Source of the DNA: Planctomycetota bacterium
GTDB taxonomy: Bacteria > Planctomycetota > Phycisphaerae > Phycisphaerales > SM1A02
Length of the DNA: 64,000 bases
Direction: 5' to 3'
Assembly (NCBI GenBank): GCA_017859745.1
Contig: JAFMML010000010.1
Span: forward strand, 1 to 64,000
Part shown: in pieces, positions 36,018 to 48,455 of the stretch
How positions within the stretch are numbered: position 1 is the stretch's first letter
How the letters are laid out: every line of letters begins with the position of its first letter
Position numbers and translations under genes: made by a program
The notes under the pieces: generated by a model
Told to the model about the DNA's origin: nothing
Seen by the model: only the letters and a program-made list of their open reading frames with translations
The model's database searches: none

Positions 36018-36740
36018 ATGCGACAGGCCCATCGATCGAGAACCGCAGCTTGGTGCGCGGGAGGCTCGCTGGCCGCGGCGTGCCTCACGGCGCCGGTCTC
36101 GGCGGACTTCACCGACTGGATGTTCGACTGGTACACCGCCAGCGGGGTGGAATACATGGTGATCGACGTGTACGCGCAGTTCGACGATCCGCTCGACACG
36201 GTGTCGTCGGTCTTCAATGCGCAGGTCTCGACACCAACCGGCGCCGCATTCCACCACGACGACTTCCACACCCTGTCCGGCCAGCCCGGCGCCTGGAGCG
36301 TCGAGCACTCCGGGGACATTCCGGGAGTGGTCGATGCTTCGATCGACTCGTTCGTGCTGATCGGCGGTCCGATCGGCGCCTCCAACACGACCGAACTCGA
36401 CGACCTCTTCGTTCCCGGGACCGGCGGAGCGGTGCCGACGAACGCAGGGTGGTTCAACGTCGAGCCGGCGAATCTCAACGGCCGCGTCGATCCGGAGAAC
36501 CTGCGGCTGCTGATCGGCCGCTTCGTTCTCGAGGACTTCGCGGGAGGGGACCTTCTGATGTCCTTCGGCGCGAACCTCGCCTACGACCAGGGCCCCGGGA
36601 CCGAGTTGCGATACGCGTGGGACGGCGGCGAGGGATCGGGGCCGATCCACGAGGTCTACATTCCATCGCCCGCGACGCTCCCGACCCTTCTCCTGGCCGC
36701 CGGATGGTCGAGCCGAGGCCGCCGTCGTTCTCGATCGTGA
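36018..36740 (+). CDS. PEP-CTERM-like sorted exoprotein, copy 1
   Basis: A 240-residue secreted protein. ATG 36018 has GGAG 6 nt upstream and begins a signal peptide ending APVSA-DF (about residue 29). The body is a beta-rich domain of unknown family, shared with the next gene. The tail is IPSP followed by a hydrophobic helix and an Arg cluster (GRRRSRS), the planctomycete form of the PEP-CTERM signal, which is cut by an exosortase or anchors the protein during export. No exosortase gene is in the window. Confidence 0.75.
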   Translation: MRQAHRSRTAAWCAGGSLAAACLTAPVSADFTDWMFDWYTASGVEYMVIDVYAQFDDPLDTVSSVFNAQVSTPTGAAFHHDDFHTLSGQPGAWSVEHSGDIPGVVDASIDSFVLIGGPIGASNTTELDDLFVPGTGGAVPTNAGWFNVEPANLNGRVDPENLRLLIGRFVLEDFAGGDLLMSFGANLAYDQGPGTELRYAWDGGEGSGPIHEVYIPSPATLPTLLLAAGWSSRGRRRSRS

Positions 36741-36838: not shown

Positions 36839-37558
36839 ATGAACGACTTCTTTGCGACGTCTCGATCGATGTCGGCCGCCCTGCTGACCGCGGCGGTCGT
36901 GGCGACACCCGCTGCGGCGGAGTTCACCGGCTGGATGTTCGACCACTACGCCAGCAGCGACCAGGAGTTCTTCGTGGTCGACGTGTACGCCCAGTTCGAC
37001 GATCAGATGGACACCGTGCTTTCGGTGTTCAACGCGCAGATCGGCACCGCCGCGGGCATGGCGTTCCACCACGACGACTTCCGCACGCTGAGCGGCCTGC
37101 CCGGAGCTTGGAACGTCAAGGACTCCGGGGACATCCCGGGAGTGGTCGATTCCTCGATCGACTCGTTCGTGATGATCGGCGGCCCGATCGGCGGCATCAA
37201 CACGACGGCTCTCGACGACCAGTTCGTTCCCGGGACCGGTGGGGCGGTTCCGGAGAACGCAGGCTGGTTCAACGCCAATCCGTCGAATCTCCAAGGCCGC
37301 GCGGAGGAGTGGACCTGGCGGCTCTGGGTTGGTCGCTTCGTTCGCGACCTGGTCTGGGGCGACGGATTGATCCTCTCCTTCGGCGCCAATCTGTCCTACG
37401 ACCAGGGACCCGGGACTTCGCTGCAGTACGGATGGGACGGCGGGAAGGGCTCCGGACCCATCACCAACATCTACATTCCCGCCCCGTCGGTCGCAGCGGT
37501 CCTTCTGATCGGTGGGGCCGTGGTCGGCCGCCGACGCTCACGAACCGCTTGCGGGTGA
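36839..37558 (+). CDS. PEP-CTERM-like sorted exoprotein, copy 2 (paralog)
   Basis: 239 residues, clearly homologous to copy 1 over the full length: shared blocks VDVYAQFDD, FHHDDF, SGDIPGVVD, SIDSFV, IGGPIG, FVPGTGGAVP and YDQGPGT. Signal peptide ends TPAAA-EF; the tail is IPAPS, a hydrophobic helix and GRRRSRTACG. A 98-nt gap separates the copies, so they arose by tandem duplication. The function of the shared domain is unknown. The stop region overlaps the converging phosphatase gene by 21 nt. Confidence 0.77.
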   Translation: MNDFFATSRSMSAALLTAAVVATPAAAEFTGWMFDHYASSDQEFFVVDVYAQFDDQMDTVLSVFNAQIGTAAGMAFHHDDFRTLSGLPGAWNVKDSGDIPGVVDSSIDSFVMIGGPIGGINTTALDDQFVPGTGGAVPENAGWFNANPSNLQGRAEEWTWRLWVGRFVRDLVWGDGLILSFGANLSYDQGPGTSLQYGWDGGKGSGPITNIYIPAPSVAAVLLIGGAVVGRRRSRTACG

Positions 37559-40406: not shown

Positions 40407-40697
40407 ATGACCATCGAGAAGCTCGCCGACGCCGACCTTGAACAGGGCCTGCAGCGGCTCTCCGAGTGGAGCCGCAGCGGCGAGTCGATCCAGCGGACCT
40501 TCGCCTTCGCCGACTTCGTGGCGGCGATGGCGTTCGTCGACCGCGTGGCCGAGAGGGCCGAGGAGGTCCAGCATCATCCGGACATCCTCGTGCGGTGGAA
40601 CAAGGTCACCTTGACCCTCTCCACGCACGATGCCGGCGGCCTGACCGAGAAGGACCTCGCGCTTGCCGCCGAGTGCGACGGATTCGCGATCGACTGA
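40407..40697 (+). CDS. phhB: Pterin-4a-carbinolamine dehydratase
   Basis: A 96-residue protein with the family signature EEVQHHPDILVRWNKVTLTLSTHDAGGLTEKDL (from about residue 55). It recycles hydroxytetrahydrobiopterin after aromatic hydroxylases; in many bacteria lacking them it is thought to support pterin cofactors more generally. No phenylalanine hydroxylase gene is nearby. The gene converges on the sialidase-fucosidase gene with 11 bp between stops. Confidence 0.93.
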   Translation: MTIEKLADADLEQGLQRLSEWSRSGESIQRTFAFADFVAAMAFVDRVAERAEEVQHHPDILVRWNKVTLTLSTHDAGGLTEKDLALAAECDGFAID

Positions 40698-40708: not shown

Positions 40709-43252
40709 TCACTCGCGACGCGGGTCGTCGAACAGCGAGACGTCTCGAAGCAGGGGGGACGCGAGGCTCTCGCGGATCGAGATCCGCAGCCGCGTCGTGG
40801 AGGTCTGCGGCACCTCGAGGATGCGGCGGGGGCCGATCGTCGTGCCCTCGGCGAGCGGGCGCCATGCGGATCCGTCCCAAGTCTCGATTCCGAACGCGGC
40901 GATCCGCTGGCCGAACTCGATCGGTTCGCGCAACCGCACCACGTCGAAGGCGAGCGGTTCGTCGAAGCGAAGTTCGATCGTCGCCGTTCGGGCGTCGTCG
41001 TCTGCGGCCCAGAGCGTCGCGTCGTCGCCGTCGATCAGGTTCGTGGGCCCGAAGCGGGGGCTGTCGCCGCGGGTCTCGTCCGCGGTCGCCGCCACCACGC
41101 GGTTCAGGATCAGATCCGTCGAGAAGATCTCGTCGAGACGTGTGCGAAGGCCCTCGAGCGAGGCGATGTCGCGCTCGTGGACCAGTCCTCTTCGATCCGG
41201 TGGCAGGTTCAGCAGCAGGTTGGCGCCGCGACCCACCGAGGCGAACCAGATCTCCAGCAGCTGCTCGGGGCTCTTGACCCGCTCGTTCTCCGACTCGTGG
41301 AAGAACCAGCCCGGGCGGATCGAGACGTCCGCCTCGACGCCGATCCAGTGGGAGCCGCCCGGCTCGCCCTTCGCAAGGTCGACTGCGCCGGACATCCCCG
41401 GGTGGCGACCCTCGCGATCCATGGTCTGCCAGCTCGTCTCGGCGGAGAAGCCGCGCTCGTTGCCGACCCAGCGGCATCCCGGCCCGACGTCGCTGAAGGC
41501 GATCGCCTCCGGCGCCATCGCGAGGATCCACGGCATCGTCTCGTCCCAGCGGTAGTAGGTCGCCCGGTCGATCCGCCTGGTCTCGCGGGCGCCGCCGTAG
41601 TGGCCGTCGCCGCCGTTGGCACCGTCGAACCAGAGTTCGAACGCGTCGGGATGCCGCTCGAGCAGTTCACGCCACTGCCCTCGAAAGGCCTCGAGGTACT
41701 CCGGTCGTCCGTACTCGGGGTGGTTGCGGTCCCACGGGCTGACGTAGAAGCCGTAGCGCAGGCCCTCGGCCTCGCACGCCGCGACGAACTCGGCGACGAG
41801 GTCGCCCTCGCCGTCGCGCCACGGGCTCGCGGCGATGTCGTGCTCGGTGGTCTCGGTGGGCCAGAGGCAGAAGCCGTCGTGATGCTTCGCGGTCAGGACG
41901 AGTCCCTTCATGCCGGCGGCCTTCGCGACCTTCGCCCACTGTCGGACGTCCATGGACTCGGGATCGAAGAGCGTGGGCGATTCGTCGCCGAAGCCCCATT
42001 CGCGATCGGTGAACGCGTTGATGCCGTAGTGGATGAAGCCGTAGTACTCGAGTTCGTGCCACGCCTGCTGCGCGGAGCTCGGCAATGCCCCGAAGGGCGC
42101 CGGGGCCGCGACCTCGAACTCCGTCGGATGCAGGCGCACCGAGACGACGTAGGGCGGCTCGTCGGGCGTCCAGTGGCCGTAGGTCGTGAACACCACCGTG
42201 CCGTCGGGAAGGCGCTCGACGCCCGGATACGCGCAGTCCCAGCGATGGTGGTTGTCCATCAGGCGCACCCGGAACGCCGACTCGGCGCGAGCGTTCCTCT
42301 CTCGCACCAGTTCCGACCACGGCCCGATCCAGGCGATCCAGTCGCCCGCGGTGGGGCTGCCGGGTCGGGTGTCCCGGAAGGAGACCGCCACGCGTCCGTC
42401 GGGAAGCACCACCCCCGCGTGGCGATCGCCCACGAGATCGTCCGGCACCTCGCGAGGCTCGCTCCAGGAGAGACCTTCGTCGGTCGAGAACATCACGTGG
42501 GAGTTCAGGCGCCGACGGTTCTCGCGCAGGAACATCGCGAGCGTGCCTCCGTCGGGCGATCGGAACACGCCCGGCTCGCAGAGGTGCACCTCGCCTCCCG
42601 ACCAGAGCTCCCGCGGCTCGGTCCACGTCAGGCCGCCGTCCTTCGACCGGGTCTCGAAGAGGCGGAAGGTCCCGGTGGCGCGACCGTCGGTCTCCTGCGG
42701 CCTGAAGAAGCGGCCGTCGTCGTGGAAGTACGCCGCGTGCGTGCCGTCGGCGAGGGCGACCACCGAGCTCATCGCGACGATGCCGCCGAAGTCCCCGATG
42801 GGTTCGAGCGGCGTCCATGTCGCGCCGTCGTCTTCGGAGTACGCGCGGCGGATCGGATGCAGCCCCGAGAAGACCACGAGCCGCTTCGTGCCGTCGCGGG
42901 GATCGACGAGGCGATGGATGGTCGGCGTCTCCTTGCTGGTCGCCCAGTTCTCCGGCACCGGGAGGCGATCGCTCCAGGTGCGGCCGCCGTCTTCGCTTCG
43001 CTTCATGACGATCGGGCCGCGGCCGTGGCCCTTGGGATAGACCGCGATGACGGTGCGTCCGTCTTCGAGCAGCACCGTGGTCGGGTGCCCCAGATACCGG
43101 CCGGGTTCGCGATCGACGACGACCTGCCGGGAGGCGTCGCGGGACAGGTCGAACTGCGGCACGATCGGATCGCCGGATGTCGACGGGGCTGCGGCGACCG
43201 ATCCGGCCGCGACGAGGAGGAGGACGTGCGGGAGGAGGGTTCGAGCGGGCAT
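40709..43252 (-). CDS. Secreted sialidase - alpha-L-fucosidase (GH29) fusion with C-terminal beta-sandwich
   Basis: 847 residues. A signal peptide (about 1-22) is followed by a six-bladed sialidase-like propeller (about 40-380) with Asp boxes SEDGGRTW, SEDDGATW, SKDGGLTW and STDEGLSW. Residues about 395-700 are a GH29 fucosidase barrel: YYGFIHYGINAFTDREWG, AKHHDGFCLWPT, and the nucleophile region ELWFDGANG (Asp near 542). The last 140 residues form a discoidin-like sandwich. A stop or linker between domains is not seen, so this is one polypeptide. It should remove terminal sialic acid and fucose from glycoproteins or algal and mucin glycans. Sialidase catalytic Arg residues were not confirmed. 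Confidence 0.85.
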   Translation of the reverse strand: MPARTLLPHVLLLVAAGSVAAAPSTSGDPIVPQFDLSRDASRQVVVDREPGRYLGHPTTVLLEDGRTVIAVYPKGHGRGPIVMKRSEDGGRTWSDRLPVPENWATSKETPTIHRLVDPRDGTKRLVVFSGLHPIRRAYSEDDGATWTPLEPIGDFGGIVAMSSVVALADGTHAAYFHDDGRFFRPQETDGRATGTFRLFETRSKDGGLTWTEPRELWSGGEVHLCEPGVFRSPDGGTLAMFLRENRRRLNSHVMFSTDEGLSWSEPREVPDDLVGDRHAGVVLPDGRVAVSFRDTRPGSPTAGDWIAWIGPWSELVRERNARAESAFRVRLMDNHHRWDCAYPGVERLPDGTVVFTTYGHWTPDEPPYVVSVRLHPTEFEVAAPAPFGALPSSAQQAWHELEYYGFIHYGINAFTDREWGFGDESPTLFDPESMDVRQWAKVAKAAGMKGLVLTAKHHDGFCLWPTETTEHDIAASPWRDGEGDLVAEFVAACEAEGLRYGFYVSPWDRNHPEYGRPEYLEAFRGQWRELLERHPDAFELWFDGANGGDGHYGGARETRRIDRATYYRWDETMPWILAMAPEAIAFSDVGPGCRWVGNERGFSAETSWQTMDREGRHPGMSGAVDLAKGEPGGSHWIGVEADVSIRPGWFFHESENERVKSPEQLLEIWFASVGRGANLLLNLPPDRRGLVHERDIASLEGLRTRLDEIFSTDLILNRVVAATADETRGDSPRFGPTNLIDGDDATLWAADDDARTATIELRFDEPLAFDVVRLREPIEFGQRIAAFGIETWDGSAWRPLAEGTTIGPRRILEVPQTSTTRLRISIRESLASPLLRDVSLFDDPRRE

Positions 43253-43258
43253 GGCGCG

Positions 43259-43264
43259 AGTCTA
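43259..43264 (-). promoter_or_regulatory. Putative -10 TAGACT, leaderless start of the sialidase-fucosidase gene
   Basis: TAGACT on the minus strand, a 6-nt spacer, then ATG 43252. Only 45 bp separate the two divergent start codons here, so the two promoters overlap. Confidence 0.5.
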
Positions 43265-43284
43265 TCCACGCCTGTCGTCGGAAC

Positions 43285-43290
43285 TATCAT
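43285..43290 (+). promoter_or_regulatory. Putative -10 TATCAT, leaderless start of coaD
   Basis: TATCAT, a 7-nt spacer, then ATG 43298. Its -35 region would fall on the opposing -10 element. Confidence 0.5.
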
Positions 43291-43297
43291 CCGAGGC

Positions 43298-43861
43298 ATG
43301 TCCGACGCGAAGCACGTGGCGCTCTATTCCGGCTCGTTCGACCCGATGACCCTCGGTCACCTCGACGTGCTTGGCCGGGCCCGCGGCATCTTCGACGAGA
43401 TCGTGGTGGCGGTCGGCCGCAATCCGGAGAAGGAGCCGCTGTTCTCGAGCGCCGAACGGGTGGACATGGCCGAGCGTCTCGTCGCCGAACTCGTCGCCAC
43501 GACCCCGGGCGGGGCGCCGGTGCGGGTCGAGGGCTACCACGGCCTCACCGTGGACTTCGCCCGGCAGATCGGCGCCAACGTGCTTCTTCGAGGACTTCGG
43601 CACGGCAGCGACCTCGCCTCGGAGTGCCAGCTCGCGATCGCCAACCGACAGGTCGCCGAGATGGAGACGGTCTTCGTGGTCGCCGGCGAGATCCACGGCT
43701 ACACCAGTTCGAGCCTGATCAAGCAGGTGGCGGCGCTCGGCGGCGATCTCGAGCGACTGGCGACCATGGTCCCGCCGATCGTGCTCGAGGCCCTGCGGGC
43801 CAGGCGGAACCAGGCGGACAACCCGCTCGGTCGACTCGCTCGCAACGCTCCGGAGGAGTAG
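43298..43861 (+). CDS. coaD: Phosphopantetheine adenylyltransferase
   Basis: Penultimate step of coenzyme A synthesis. The 187-residue protein has the nucleotidyltransferase start ALYSGSFDPMTLGHLDVLGRA, the NVLLRGLRHGSDLASE loop and YTSSSLIKQVAALGGD in place of the usual ISSS-VRE. The C-terminal 20 residues are a polar extension. Substrate preference cannot be doubted much because every CoaD block is present. Confidence 0.95.
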   Translation: MSDAKHVALYSGSFDPMTLGHLDVLGRARGIFDEIVVAVGRNPEKEPLFSSAERVDMAERLVAELVATTPGGAPVRVEGYHGLTVDFARQIGANVLLRGLRHGSDLASECQLAIANRQVAEMETVFVVAGEIHGYTSSSLIKQVAALGGDLERLATMVPPIVLEALRARRNQADNPLGRLARNAPEE

Positions 43862-46615: not shown

Positions 46616-47515
46616 CTAGGACTCGAGAGAGCGTCGAAACGCCTCGCGTTCCTCGTCCGACATCGAGTACGGATGCGGACCCAGATCGCCGCCGTCGACC
46701 CGTTGGCACCAGGTCGACGCGGCCTTGACGATGGCATCGCCGATTCTCGCCGTCGGCGTCGCGAACGCCGGCTGCCAGTCGGTCAGTCCGAGCAGGTCCT
46801 GCAGGACCACGATCTGCCCATGGCAGGCGGGACCCGCCCCGCATCCCACCACGGGAAGCCGACTTCGTTGAACGATCTCCTCGGCGACCTCCGCCGGACA
46901 CGCTTCGACCAGCAGCATCGTGGCCCCGGCCTCCTCCAGACAGCGGGCGTCCTCGAGGAGTTCGCGAGCGGTCTCGGCGGTCTTGCCGGCGGACCAGTAC
47001 CCGCCGCGCAGGCGAGCGTGCTGCGGGCGCGATCCGATGTGGGCGACGACGGGAATGCCCGCGAGACTCATCTTCTCGACCAGCGTGGCGTGACGTCGGT
47101 CGACCTCGAGCTTGACCGCATCGGCATGACCTTCCGTCATGAACCGACCGGCGTTGCGGATGCCCTCGGCGTCCTCGGTGCCGTAGGACAGAAACGGCAT
47201 GTCCGCCATCACGAACCGCGAGGGACCGCCGCGCTTCACCGCGGCCGTGAGGGTGATCATGAAGTCCAGCGGCGCGTGCAGGGTCGCCGGGTGGCCCAGA
47301 ATCACCTCGGCGGCGGTGTCTCCCACCAGCAGCACGGGAACGCCGGCTCGTTCGAGCCAGCGCGCGGTGGTCGCGTCGTAGCAGGTCAGCGCCGCGAACT
47401 TGACGCCTTCGCGGCGCCACTTCGCAAGGGTGCGGATGGTGATGGGAGTCGCTGCCGCGTCGCTCGCCGGCAACGCCGCAGAGGTCTCGGACCTGGTCGA
47501 AGAGGCGCGGGTCAT
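46616..47515 (-). CDS. panB: 3-methyl-2-oxobutanoate hydroxymethyltransferase
   Basis: First step of pantothenate synthesis, here near coaD. The 299-residue protein has the barrel motifs [78 protein letters not shown] and [13 protein letters not shown], where the usual H-I-G-LTPQ is slightly altered to HIGSRPQH. The N-terminal 25 residues are a polar extension. TACACT lies 6 nt upstream of ATG. Confidence 0.94.
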
Positions 47516-47521
47516 GCTTCA

Positions 47522-47527
47522 AGTGTA
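47522..47527 (-). promoter_or_regulatory. Putative -10 TACACT, leaderless start of panB
   Basis: TACACT on the minus strand, a 6-nt spacer, then ATG 47515. It is divergent from the ABC ATPase with 61 bp between start codons. Confidence 0.5.
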
Positions 47528-47563
47528 CGAGGCGGACGAGGCGGAATCCGCAGGAGCGGGTGC

Positions 47564-47569
47564 TACCAT
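47564..47569 (+). promoter_or_regulatory. Putative -10 TACCAT, leaderless start of the ABC ATPase
   Basis: TACCAT, a 7-nt spacer, then ATG 47577. Confidence 0.5.
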
Positions 47570-47576
47570 CGGGAAC

Positions 47577-48455
47577 ATGGTCGGACCCTCCACCAACTTC
47601 TCCGCCTCCGGGGCCTCCTCGGGAGACGCCCTGCTCCAGGTGATCGACCTGCAGACGCACTTCCCGATTCGGCGGGGGCTGCTGCAGCGGGTGGTGGGGC
47701 ACGTCAAGGCCGTCGACGGGGTCAGCTTCCGAATCGGCGTGGGTGAGACCCTCGGTCTCGTGGGAGAGTCCGGCTGCGGCAAGACCACGGTCGGACGAAG
47801 CCTCCTCAAGCTGATCCCGGCCACCGGCGGACGGGTGCTCTACCGGGGCGAGTCGGTGTTCGACCAGCCCGCCGGCGAGATGCGGCGCCTGCGACGCGAG
47901 ATGCAGATCATCTTTCAGGATCCCGCGGGCAGCCTGAACCCCCGCATGCGGGTCGCGAGCATCGTCGGCGAGCCGCTCGAGGTGCACGGCATCGCGACGG
48001 GCGAGGAGTTGCGAGATCGCGTCGAGCAGCTGCTCGTGCGGTGTGGTCTGTGGAAGACCGCGGCGGATCGGTATCCGCACGAGTTCAGCGGCGGCCAGCG
48101 GCAGCGGATCGGCATCGCCCGCGCGCTCGCGCTCGAGCCGAAGCTCATCGTGTGCGACGAACCGACCTCGGCCCTCGACGTCTCGATCCAGTCCCAGATC
48201 CTCAACCTGCTGAAGGACCTTCAGGAGGAGTTCGGCCTGTCGTACCTGTTCATCAGCCACGACATGGCGGTGATCCACCACATCTGCGATCGCGTCGCGG
48301 TCATGTACGACGGTCGAATCGTCGAGGAGGGCGATCGGGACACCATCATCAACCGACCGACGCATCCCTACACCCAGGCGCTGCTCTCGGCGGTTCCGGA
48401 GGCGGACCCTCGTCGCAAGCGGAATCGAATCAGGTACGAAGGGATGCGGATGTGA
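47577..48455 (+). CDS. Oligopeptide/dipeptide-type ABC transporter ATPase (OppF/DppF-like)
   Basis: 292 residues: Walker A GESGCGKT (63-70), Q-loop [15 protein letters not shown], signature [16 protein letters not shown], Walker [15 protein letters not shown] and H-loop ISHDMAV, then the Opp-specific tail with [20 protein letters not shown]. The typical C-terminal cysteine cluster of OppD is lacking, so it is OppF/DppF-like. Permeases and binding protein are not adjacent. The start is placed at ATG 47577 from the TACCAT element. Confidence 0.9.

Follow-up and report, generated by a model that had tools for sequence, protein, structure and literature searches.

The gene at positions 40709 to 43252 of the window, i.e. 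the 64,000-nucleotide stretch of contig JAFMML010000010.1 from a Planctomycetota bacterium that was analysed here, encodes a fusion of a sialidase-like propeller and a GH29 fucosidase that is real but local to one genus. By its active-site residues, the propeller differs from orthodox GH33 sialidases; it represents a GH33-related family of its own, referred to here as family X, and the GH33 fusions and nan-gene neighbours of some members tie this family to sialic-acid biology.

An earlier note, made from the letters of the DNA, had described a sialidase and a GH29 alpha-L-fucosidase fused in one secreted polypeptide. A sialidase-propeller region and GH29 indeed lie in one open reading frame (ORF) of 847 residues uninterrupted by a stop, the four Asp boxes are present, and the HHDGFCLWPT and WFDGANG blocks are both found in the sequence. 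When each domain was checked against Pfam, BNR_2 (62.5 bits, cut-off 31.4) and GH29 (PF01120, 112.4 bits, cut-off 25.2) scored above their cut-offs, and F5/8 type C scored just under its own at the C terminus (27.7 bits, cut-off 28.2). The discoidin-like sandwich claimed for this end thus falls short in Pfam; it does align with the galactose-binding-like domain (GBLD) of the fucosidase AmGH29D. The GH29 match starts at residue 385, directly behind the end of the propeller at about residue 383, so that there is almost no linker between the two halves. The product is probably secreted, to judge from its sequence. The gene, its parts and its neighbours are as follows:

40709..43252, minus strand: fusion gene encoding 847 amino acids (propeller of family X, GH29 and C-terminal sandwich) without an inner stop; orthologues L034 and L035
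43187..43252, minus strand: likely signal peptide, residues 1-22, recognised by eye from a basic start, a hydrophobic stretch and AAA before residue 23
42104..43162, minus strand: propeller of family X, residues 31-383, from the BNR_2 match and the predicted fold
41108..42100, minus strand: GH29 barrel, residues 385-715, from PF01120 and the match to AmGH29D (8ayr; E 7.7e-137, Z 49.2)
40712..41107, minus strand: C-terminal galactose-binding-like sandwich, residues 716-847, with F5/8C at 27.7 bits and covered by the 8ayr match
43298..43861, plus strand: coaD, divergent neighbour (TIGR01510, 156.7 bits, cut-off 103.3)
40407..40697, plus strand: 4a-hydroxytetrahydrobiopterin (pterin-4a-carbinolamine) dehydratase, convergent neighbour (PF01329, NF002017)

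The fusion gene stands alone, flanked by coaD on one side and the pterin dehydratase gene on the other. As stated earlier, coaD is the neighbour, and the start codons of the two divergent genes are 45 bases apart (43253-43297). The ten neighbouring ORFs scanned include no sugar gene and are housekeeping or regulatory, except for a dipeptide-type ABC ATPase (47430-48452) and one ORF without any match. Elsewhere in the window, positions 36120-36737 and 36839-37555 (plus strand) encode two adjacent, similar, secreted-looking proteins with tails that by eye resemble sorting signals, the second of which has no match in Pfam or NCBIfam.

The distribution of the fusion was followed in a class-wide sample of 298 genomes and in 181 genomes of the family; scoring was confined to the top few candidates of each genome, such that a distant fusion could be missed. 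A single match across both halves was found in the window genome and the two others of its genus (77-79% identity), and in all three the fusion occupies the same locus between coaD and the pterin-dehydratase gene; none of the remaining 178 family and 295 class genomes searched showed it. Elsewhere in the family, the halves were matched at separate places, and usually just one half was matched. Since the fusion recurs at the same locus in two further species (L034 and L035), in which the order of the neighbouring genes, judged by sequence starts, is also the same, an assembly or frameshift artefact is ruled out. Over the three species pairs, dN/dS was lowest in the propeller (0.14-0.16), higher in the barrel (0.21-0.22) and highest in the C-terminal sandwich (0.28-0.42). 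Thus, propeller and barrel are both maintained by purifying selection, constraint is strongest on the propeller, and a decaying propeller is ruled out.

The GH29 alpha-L-fucosidase half is supported by sequence, predicted fold and catalytic pair. The sequence matched AmGH29D (8ayr) with E 7.7e-137, and the predicted model of this half (pLDDT 89.1) matched the same structure along the full extent of residues 385-844 with Z 49.2, 45% identity and 1.8 A over 459 residues, AmGH29D ranking ahead of SpGH29 and BiAfcB. As in GH29-B enzymes, the profile and fold match extends across the barrel and the following sandwich, and the BiAfcB-type catalytic pair, with Asp as nucleophile and Glu as acid/base, is present:

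41624..41626, minus strand: Asp543, counterpart of BiAfcB D172 by alignment to 3mo4; invariant in 15/15 sequences
41456..41458, minus strand: Glu599, counterpart of BiAfcB E217 by the same alignment; invariant in 15/15 sequences

D172A/E217A of BiAfcB are the mutations given in the title of 3uet. The fusion therefore shares with the GH29-B fucosidases AmGH29D, SpGH29 and BiAfcB both catalytic residues as well as an attached galactose-binding-like domain. AmGH29D is described as carrying a GBLD, a linker domain and a C-terminal CBM32 (PMC10067855); the C-terminal sandwich of the fusion corresponds to the GBLD, whereas the fusion has the propeller in front and is without the linker domain and the CBM32. 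In total, sequence and model identify the GH29 half as an orthodox GH29-B (alpha-1,3/4-type) fucosidase that is closest to AmGH29D of Akkermansia.

For the propeller, the AlphaFold2 model (pLDDT 92.5) has the six-bladed Asp-box fold of GH33 type. Treating fold matches within 1 Z as ties, the best among those listed was 5hx0 (Dfer_1899), a protein of unknown function that shares the fold at only 18% identity (Z 31.6, 3.0 A over 313 residues) and for which a literature search found no paper; behind it, GH33 sialidases dominate at Z about 29, and a GH93 arabinofuranosidase appears at Z about 28. Comparison with a viral fold library returned generic sialidase and propeller matches only, and plasmid records gave no match to the propeller. 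AmGH181 of Akkermansia was not among the best 50 fold matches, which is not evidence against a relation. What the four Asp boxes indicate is the fold rather than an activity.

Family X was defined by 58 aligned sequences that are 53-85% identical to the window propeller. They derive from 60 homologues aligned after fragments, identical copies and the duplicates L003, L034 and L035 had been left out, less rows L016 and L032. By record titles, the members come from Planctomycetota, Verrucomicrobiota, Acidobacteriota, Gemmatimonadota, Hydrogenedentota, Sumerlaeota and Poribacteria. BNR_2 matches 58/58 of the sequences. A search of titles and abstract starts, with subscription journals outside its scope, found no paper on the fusion or on family X. 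In a profile comparison with hhalign between family X and nine GH33 domains, three of seven canonical GH33 positions were kept, three were lost and one, Arg3, had no aligned Arg. The names of these positions follow literature usage; the columns themselves come from the alignments. The Asp boxes and the kept residues are:

42974..42997, minus strand: Asp box 1, residues 86-93, conserved in the X alignment
42815..42838, minus strand: Asp box 2, residues 139-146, with Gly143 and Trp146 conserved in the X alignment
42623..42646, minus strand: Asp box 3, residues 203-210, conserved in the X alignment
42464..42487, minus strand: Asp box 4, residues 256-263, conserved in the X alignment
42575..42577, minus strand: Glu226, counterpart of the Glu partner of the nucleophile Tyr in GH33 (hhalign; 58/58)
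42524..42526, minus strand: Arg243, counterpart of GH33 Arg2 (hhalign; 58/58)
42227..42229, minus strand: Tyr342, counterpart of the GH33 nucleophile Tyr (hhalign; 58/58)

The nucleophile Tyr and its Glu partner are thus in place, and of the arginine triad Arg2 alone is kept. The RIP motif of GH33, which holds Arg1, aligns with GHP in family X, the residue being Gly55 in 58/58 sequences, and the HMMER alignment to the solved sialidase 8um0 also places RIP on GHP. The loop with the acid/base Asp is deleted, and YPKGHGRG stands in its place; the Glu of the LYE motif, which supports Arg1 in GH33, is Gly359 (Gly in 55/58). No Arg of family X aligns with Arg3; Arg293 and Arg277 are invariant nearby. 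Most of 36 tabulated positions are invariant polar residues across several phyla, and among the invariant residues His56, His76, Glu108, Arg135, Asp178, Asp179, Arg181 and Asp304 are candidates, from the alignment, for filling the gaps. Together with Tyr, Glu and Arg2, kept in all 58 sequences, these many invariant polar residues argue for an active site. The earlier note had called the propeller a sialidase and named absent catalytic residues as the finding that would speak against this; with Arg1, its supporting Glu and the acid/base Asp lost, the catalytic residues do not support that name, and the finding applies in part, Glu226, Arg243 and Tyr342 being kept.

Compared to GH33 enzymes (L086, Neu2, NanA and P. 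gingivalis PG_0352), family X shares the fold, Tyr, Glu and Arg2, but has Gly for Arg1 and for its supporting Glu and is without the acid/base Asp loop, an Arg aligned with Arg3 and a fifth Asp box; identity to the GH33 of its own genome is about 26% over 254 residues. The window genome encodes two GH33 domains (L086 and L087) with the orthodox residue set and, therefore, the loss of residues in family X is not a habit of the clade. AmGH181 is described with Gln for the nucleophile Tyr, Gln for one triad Arg, and B and CBM-like domains (PMC10067855). Like family X, it has a GH33-like propeller with an altered triad; family X appears to differ from it, as far as that description goes, in having Tyr at the GH33 nucleophile column and lacking Arg1. 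GH177 was set aside as the identity of family X, being given as NAD-dependent in one paper (PMC11701701); two others place GH177 among sialidases (PMC11929135, PMC13096917).

Partner domains were counted by Pfam scan in 27 distinct X ORFs that run past the propeller. An orthodox-looking GH33 domain is present in nine of them (key residues read in seven of the nine) and a GDSL esterase in seven, two of which also have GH33; the other partners are sulfatase (two ORFs), ThuA, DUF1080, a divergent BNR domain and a partial BNR match (one each), and seven ORFs have no further Pfam match. Four X ORFs (L060, L068, L092 and L093) have 230-390 N-terminal residues without a Pfam match; these are stop-to-stop ORFs, part of which is perhaps untranslated. 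The divergent BNR domain, a second one without an orthodox acid/base region, occupies residues 375-739 of the L071 ORF (5998-8214), which lies in a gene cluster from Verrucomicrobiales together with sulfatase, AGE, NanA-like and NanM-like genes as assigned by sequence cluster.

Partner labels switch 14 or more times across the tree of family X. That the propeller was joined again and again to catalytic domains of unrelated kinds (GH33, GDSL, sulfatase, GH29), together with the loss of the general acid and Arg1, is what would be expected if it were a non-enzymatic, sialoglycan-binding module that brings the fucosidase or another partner to its substrate. We consider this unlikely, if the least unlikely of the alternatives: many X proteins consist of the propeller without a partner, look secreted and are about 380-400 residues long, the nucleophile pair is intact, and we infer that the invariant polar residues are more than would be expected of a lectin.

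Neighbouring genes were examined at 37 of 52 loci, leaving out the fusion loci L034 and L035 and 13 loci without an X gene call; 117 of 129 neighbour ORFs were scanned, with assignments made via representatives of sequence clusters. The scan that yielded the loci had the window protein as its seed, and the loci therefore lean to its near relatives. A NanA-like, AGE or NanM gene lies near X in 7/37 loci, two or more of them in five, and no such gene is nearby in 30/37. L057 and L077 each encode one GDSL-X-GH33 protein, directly after which NanA-like, NanM-SSF and AGE genes lie on the same strand, their ends overlapping; for the NanA-like neighbour in L057, the best model is N-acetylneuraminate lyase, below its cut-off (164 of 281 bits). 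L052 (7822-10221) and L077 (9373-12048) each encode, near X, a NanM-like kelch domain and an SSF sodium symporter in one protein, i.e. an apparent mutarotase-transporter fusion. Among the 298 class genomes, NanM Pfam matches, which include weak kelch matches, were found in 19/34 genomes with X vs 84/264 without (Fisher p 0.007, kinship ignored); NanM lies within about 4 kb of X in 4/34 genomes (G060, G069, G131 and G210). The tie of the propeller to sialic-acid biology, claimed earlier, is thus supported by GH33 in 9/27 ORFs and nan genes in 7/37 loci, and the link between GH33 and X may in part reflect module shuffling.

That the propeller is an ordinary GH33 sialidase, and the fusion an ordinary sialidase-fucosidase pair, appears improbable. 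The dominance of GH33 sialidases among the fold matches, the kept Tyr, Glu and Arg2 and the sialic-acid genes near relatives speak for it, as does AmGH181, a GH33-like propeller that is a sialidase with only two triad Arg (PMC10067855). However, family X has lost Arg1 in every member, the acid/base loop and, nearly throughout, the LYE Glu; the two GH33s of the same genome keep these residues, and AmGH181, as described there, altered other positions.

Hydrolysis by the propeller of a sugar other than sialic acid, e.g. another ulosonic acid or, as in GH93, a neutral sugar, we likewise doubt, in spite of the GH93 match, the best fold match of unknown function and nan genes at so few of the X loci, given that a Tyr nucleophile is typical of enzymes acting on carboxylated ketosides and that NanM and AGE, which from their family names we take to function in sialic-acid use, lie beside X.

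We give about an even chance to the explanation that we prefer, namely that a secreted two-enzyme protein strips caps from fucosylated glycans that also bear sialic acid or another nonulosonic acid. The GH29 half, as its family suggests, would use Asp543 and Glu599 for a double displacement that releases alpha-1,3/4-linked fucose. The propeller would hydrolyse sialic acid or a relative, with the pair Tyr342/Glu226 as nucleophile and the carboxylate held by Arg243 and other invariant Arg residues (Arg277 or Arg293). The missing acid/base Asp may be replaced by an invariant residue, either a His (His56 or His76) or an Asp (Asp178/179); the choice among these is a guess. Probably, the propeller would take a form or linkage beyond the reach of the two orthodox GH33s of the genome. 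Against this explanation stand the absence of Arg1, its supporting Glu and the acid/base Asp from all or nearly all X sequences, and the lack of a nan gene near X at 30/37 loci and anywhere in the window genome.

The window genome is 96.96% complete and has two GH33, three GH29 and 13 sulfatase matches; it has no match for NanE, NanM, AGE, the NanA/DHDPS family or fucose isomerase. With two orthodox GH33s and none of these genes, decapping rather than eating is likely: the released sugars would not be eaten by the organism, and uncapping would expose the inner glycan. Akkermansia is reported to uncap glycans without eating the caps (PMC10067855), and we infer that the set of GH33, GH29 and sulfatase matches would fit a similar habit. 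The DHDPS family (PF00701), without a match here, has one in all 14 control genomes; its absence is odd for a bacterium and may reflect a gap or another route to diaminopimelate.

For family X as a whole, we tentatively propose, at somewhat less than an even chance, an uncharacterised glycoside hydrolase family with the GH33 fold that dropped Arg1 and the acid/base Asp in favour of another general acid and carboxylate grip. In Planctomycetota, Verrucomicrobiota, Acidobacteriota and other phyla, it would help to scavenge sialic acid, working alongside orthodox GH33, esterase and sulfatase domains, perhaps on modified sialic acids that are out of reach for GH33, and would have been captured by a fucosidase in one genus.

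From the sequence comparisons, this half is better labelled a sialidase-like propeller than a sialidase; its family is uncharacterised and has ties to sialic-acid genes. Family X, rather than the fusion, is the part of most interest. Its members, by their BNR_2 match, could easily be taken for sialidases in genome surveys even though half of the catalytic set is missing. The fusions of family X name likely partner reactions, i.e. desialylation, deacylation, desulfation and defucosylation, and make the substrate directly testable. If family X is an enzyme, it would represent an unassigned activity inside the sialic-acid gene clusters of some free-living bacteria.
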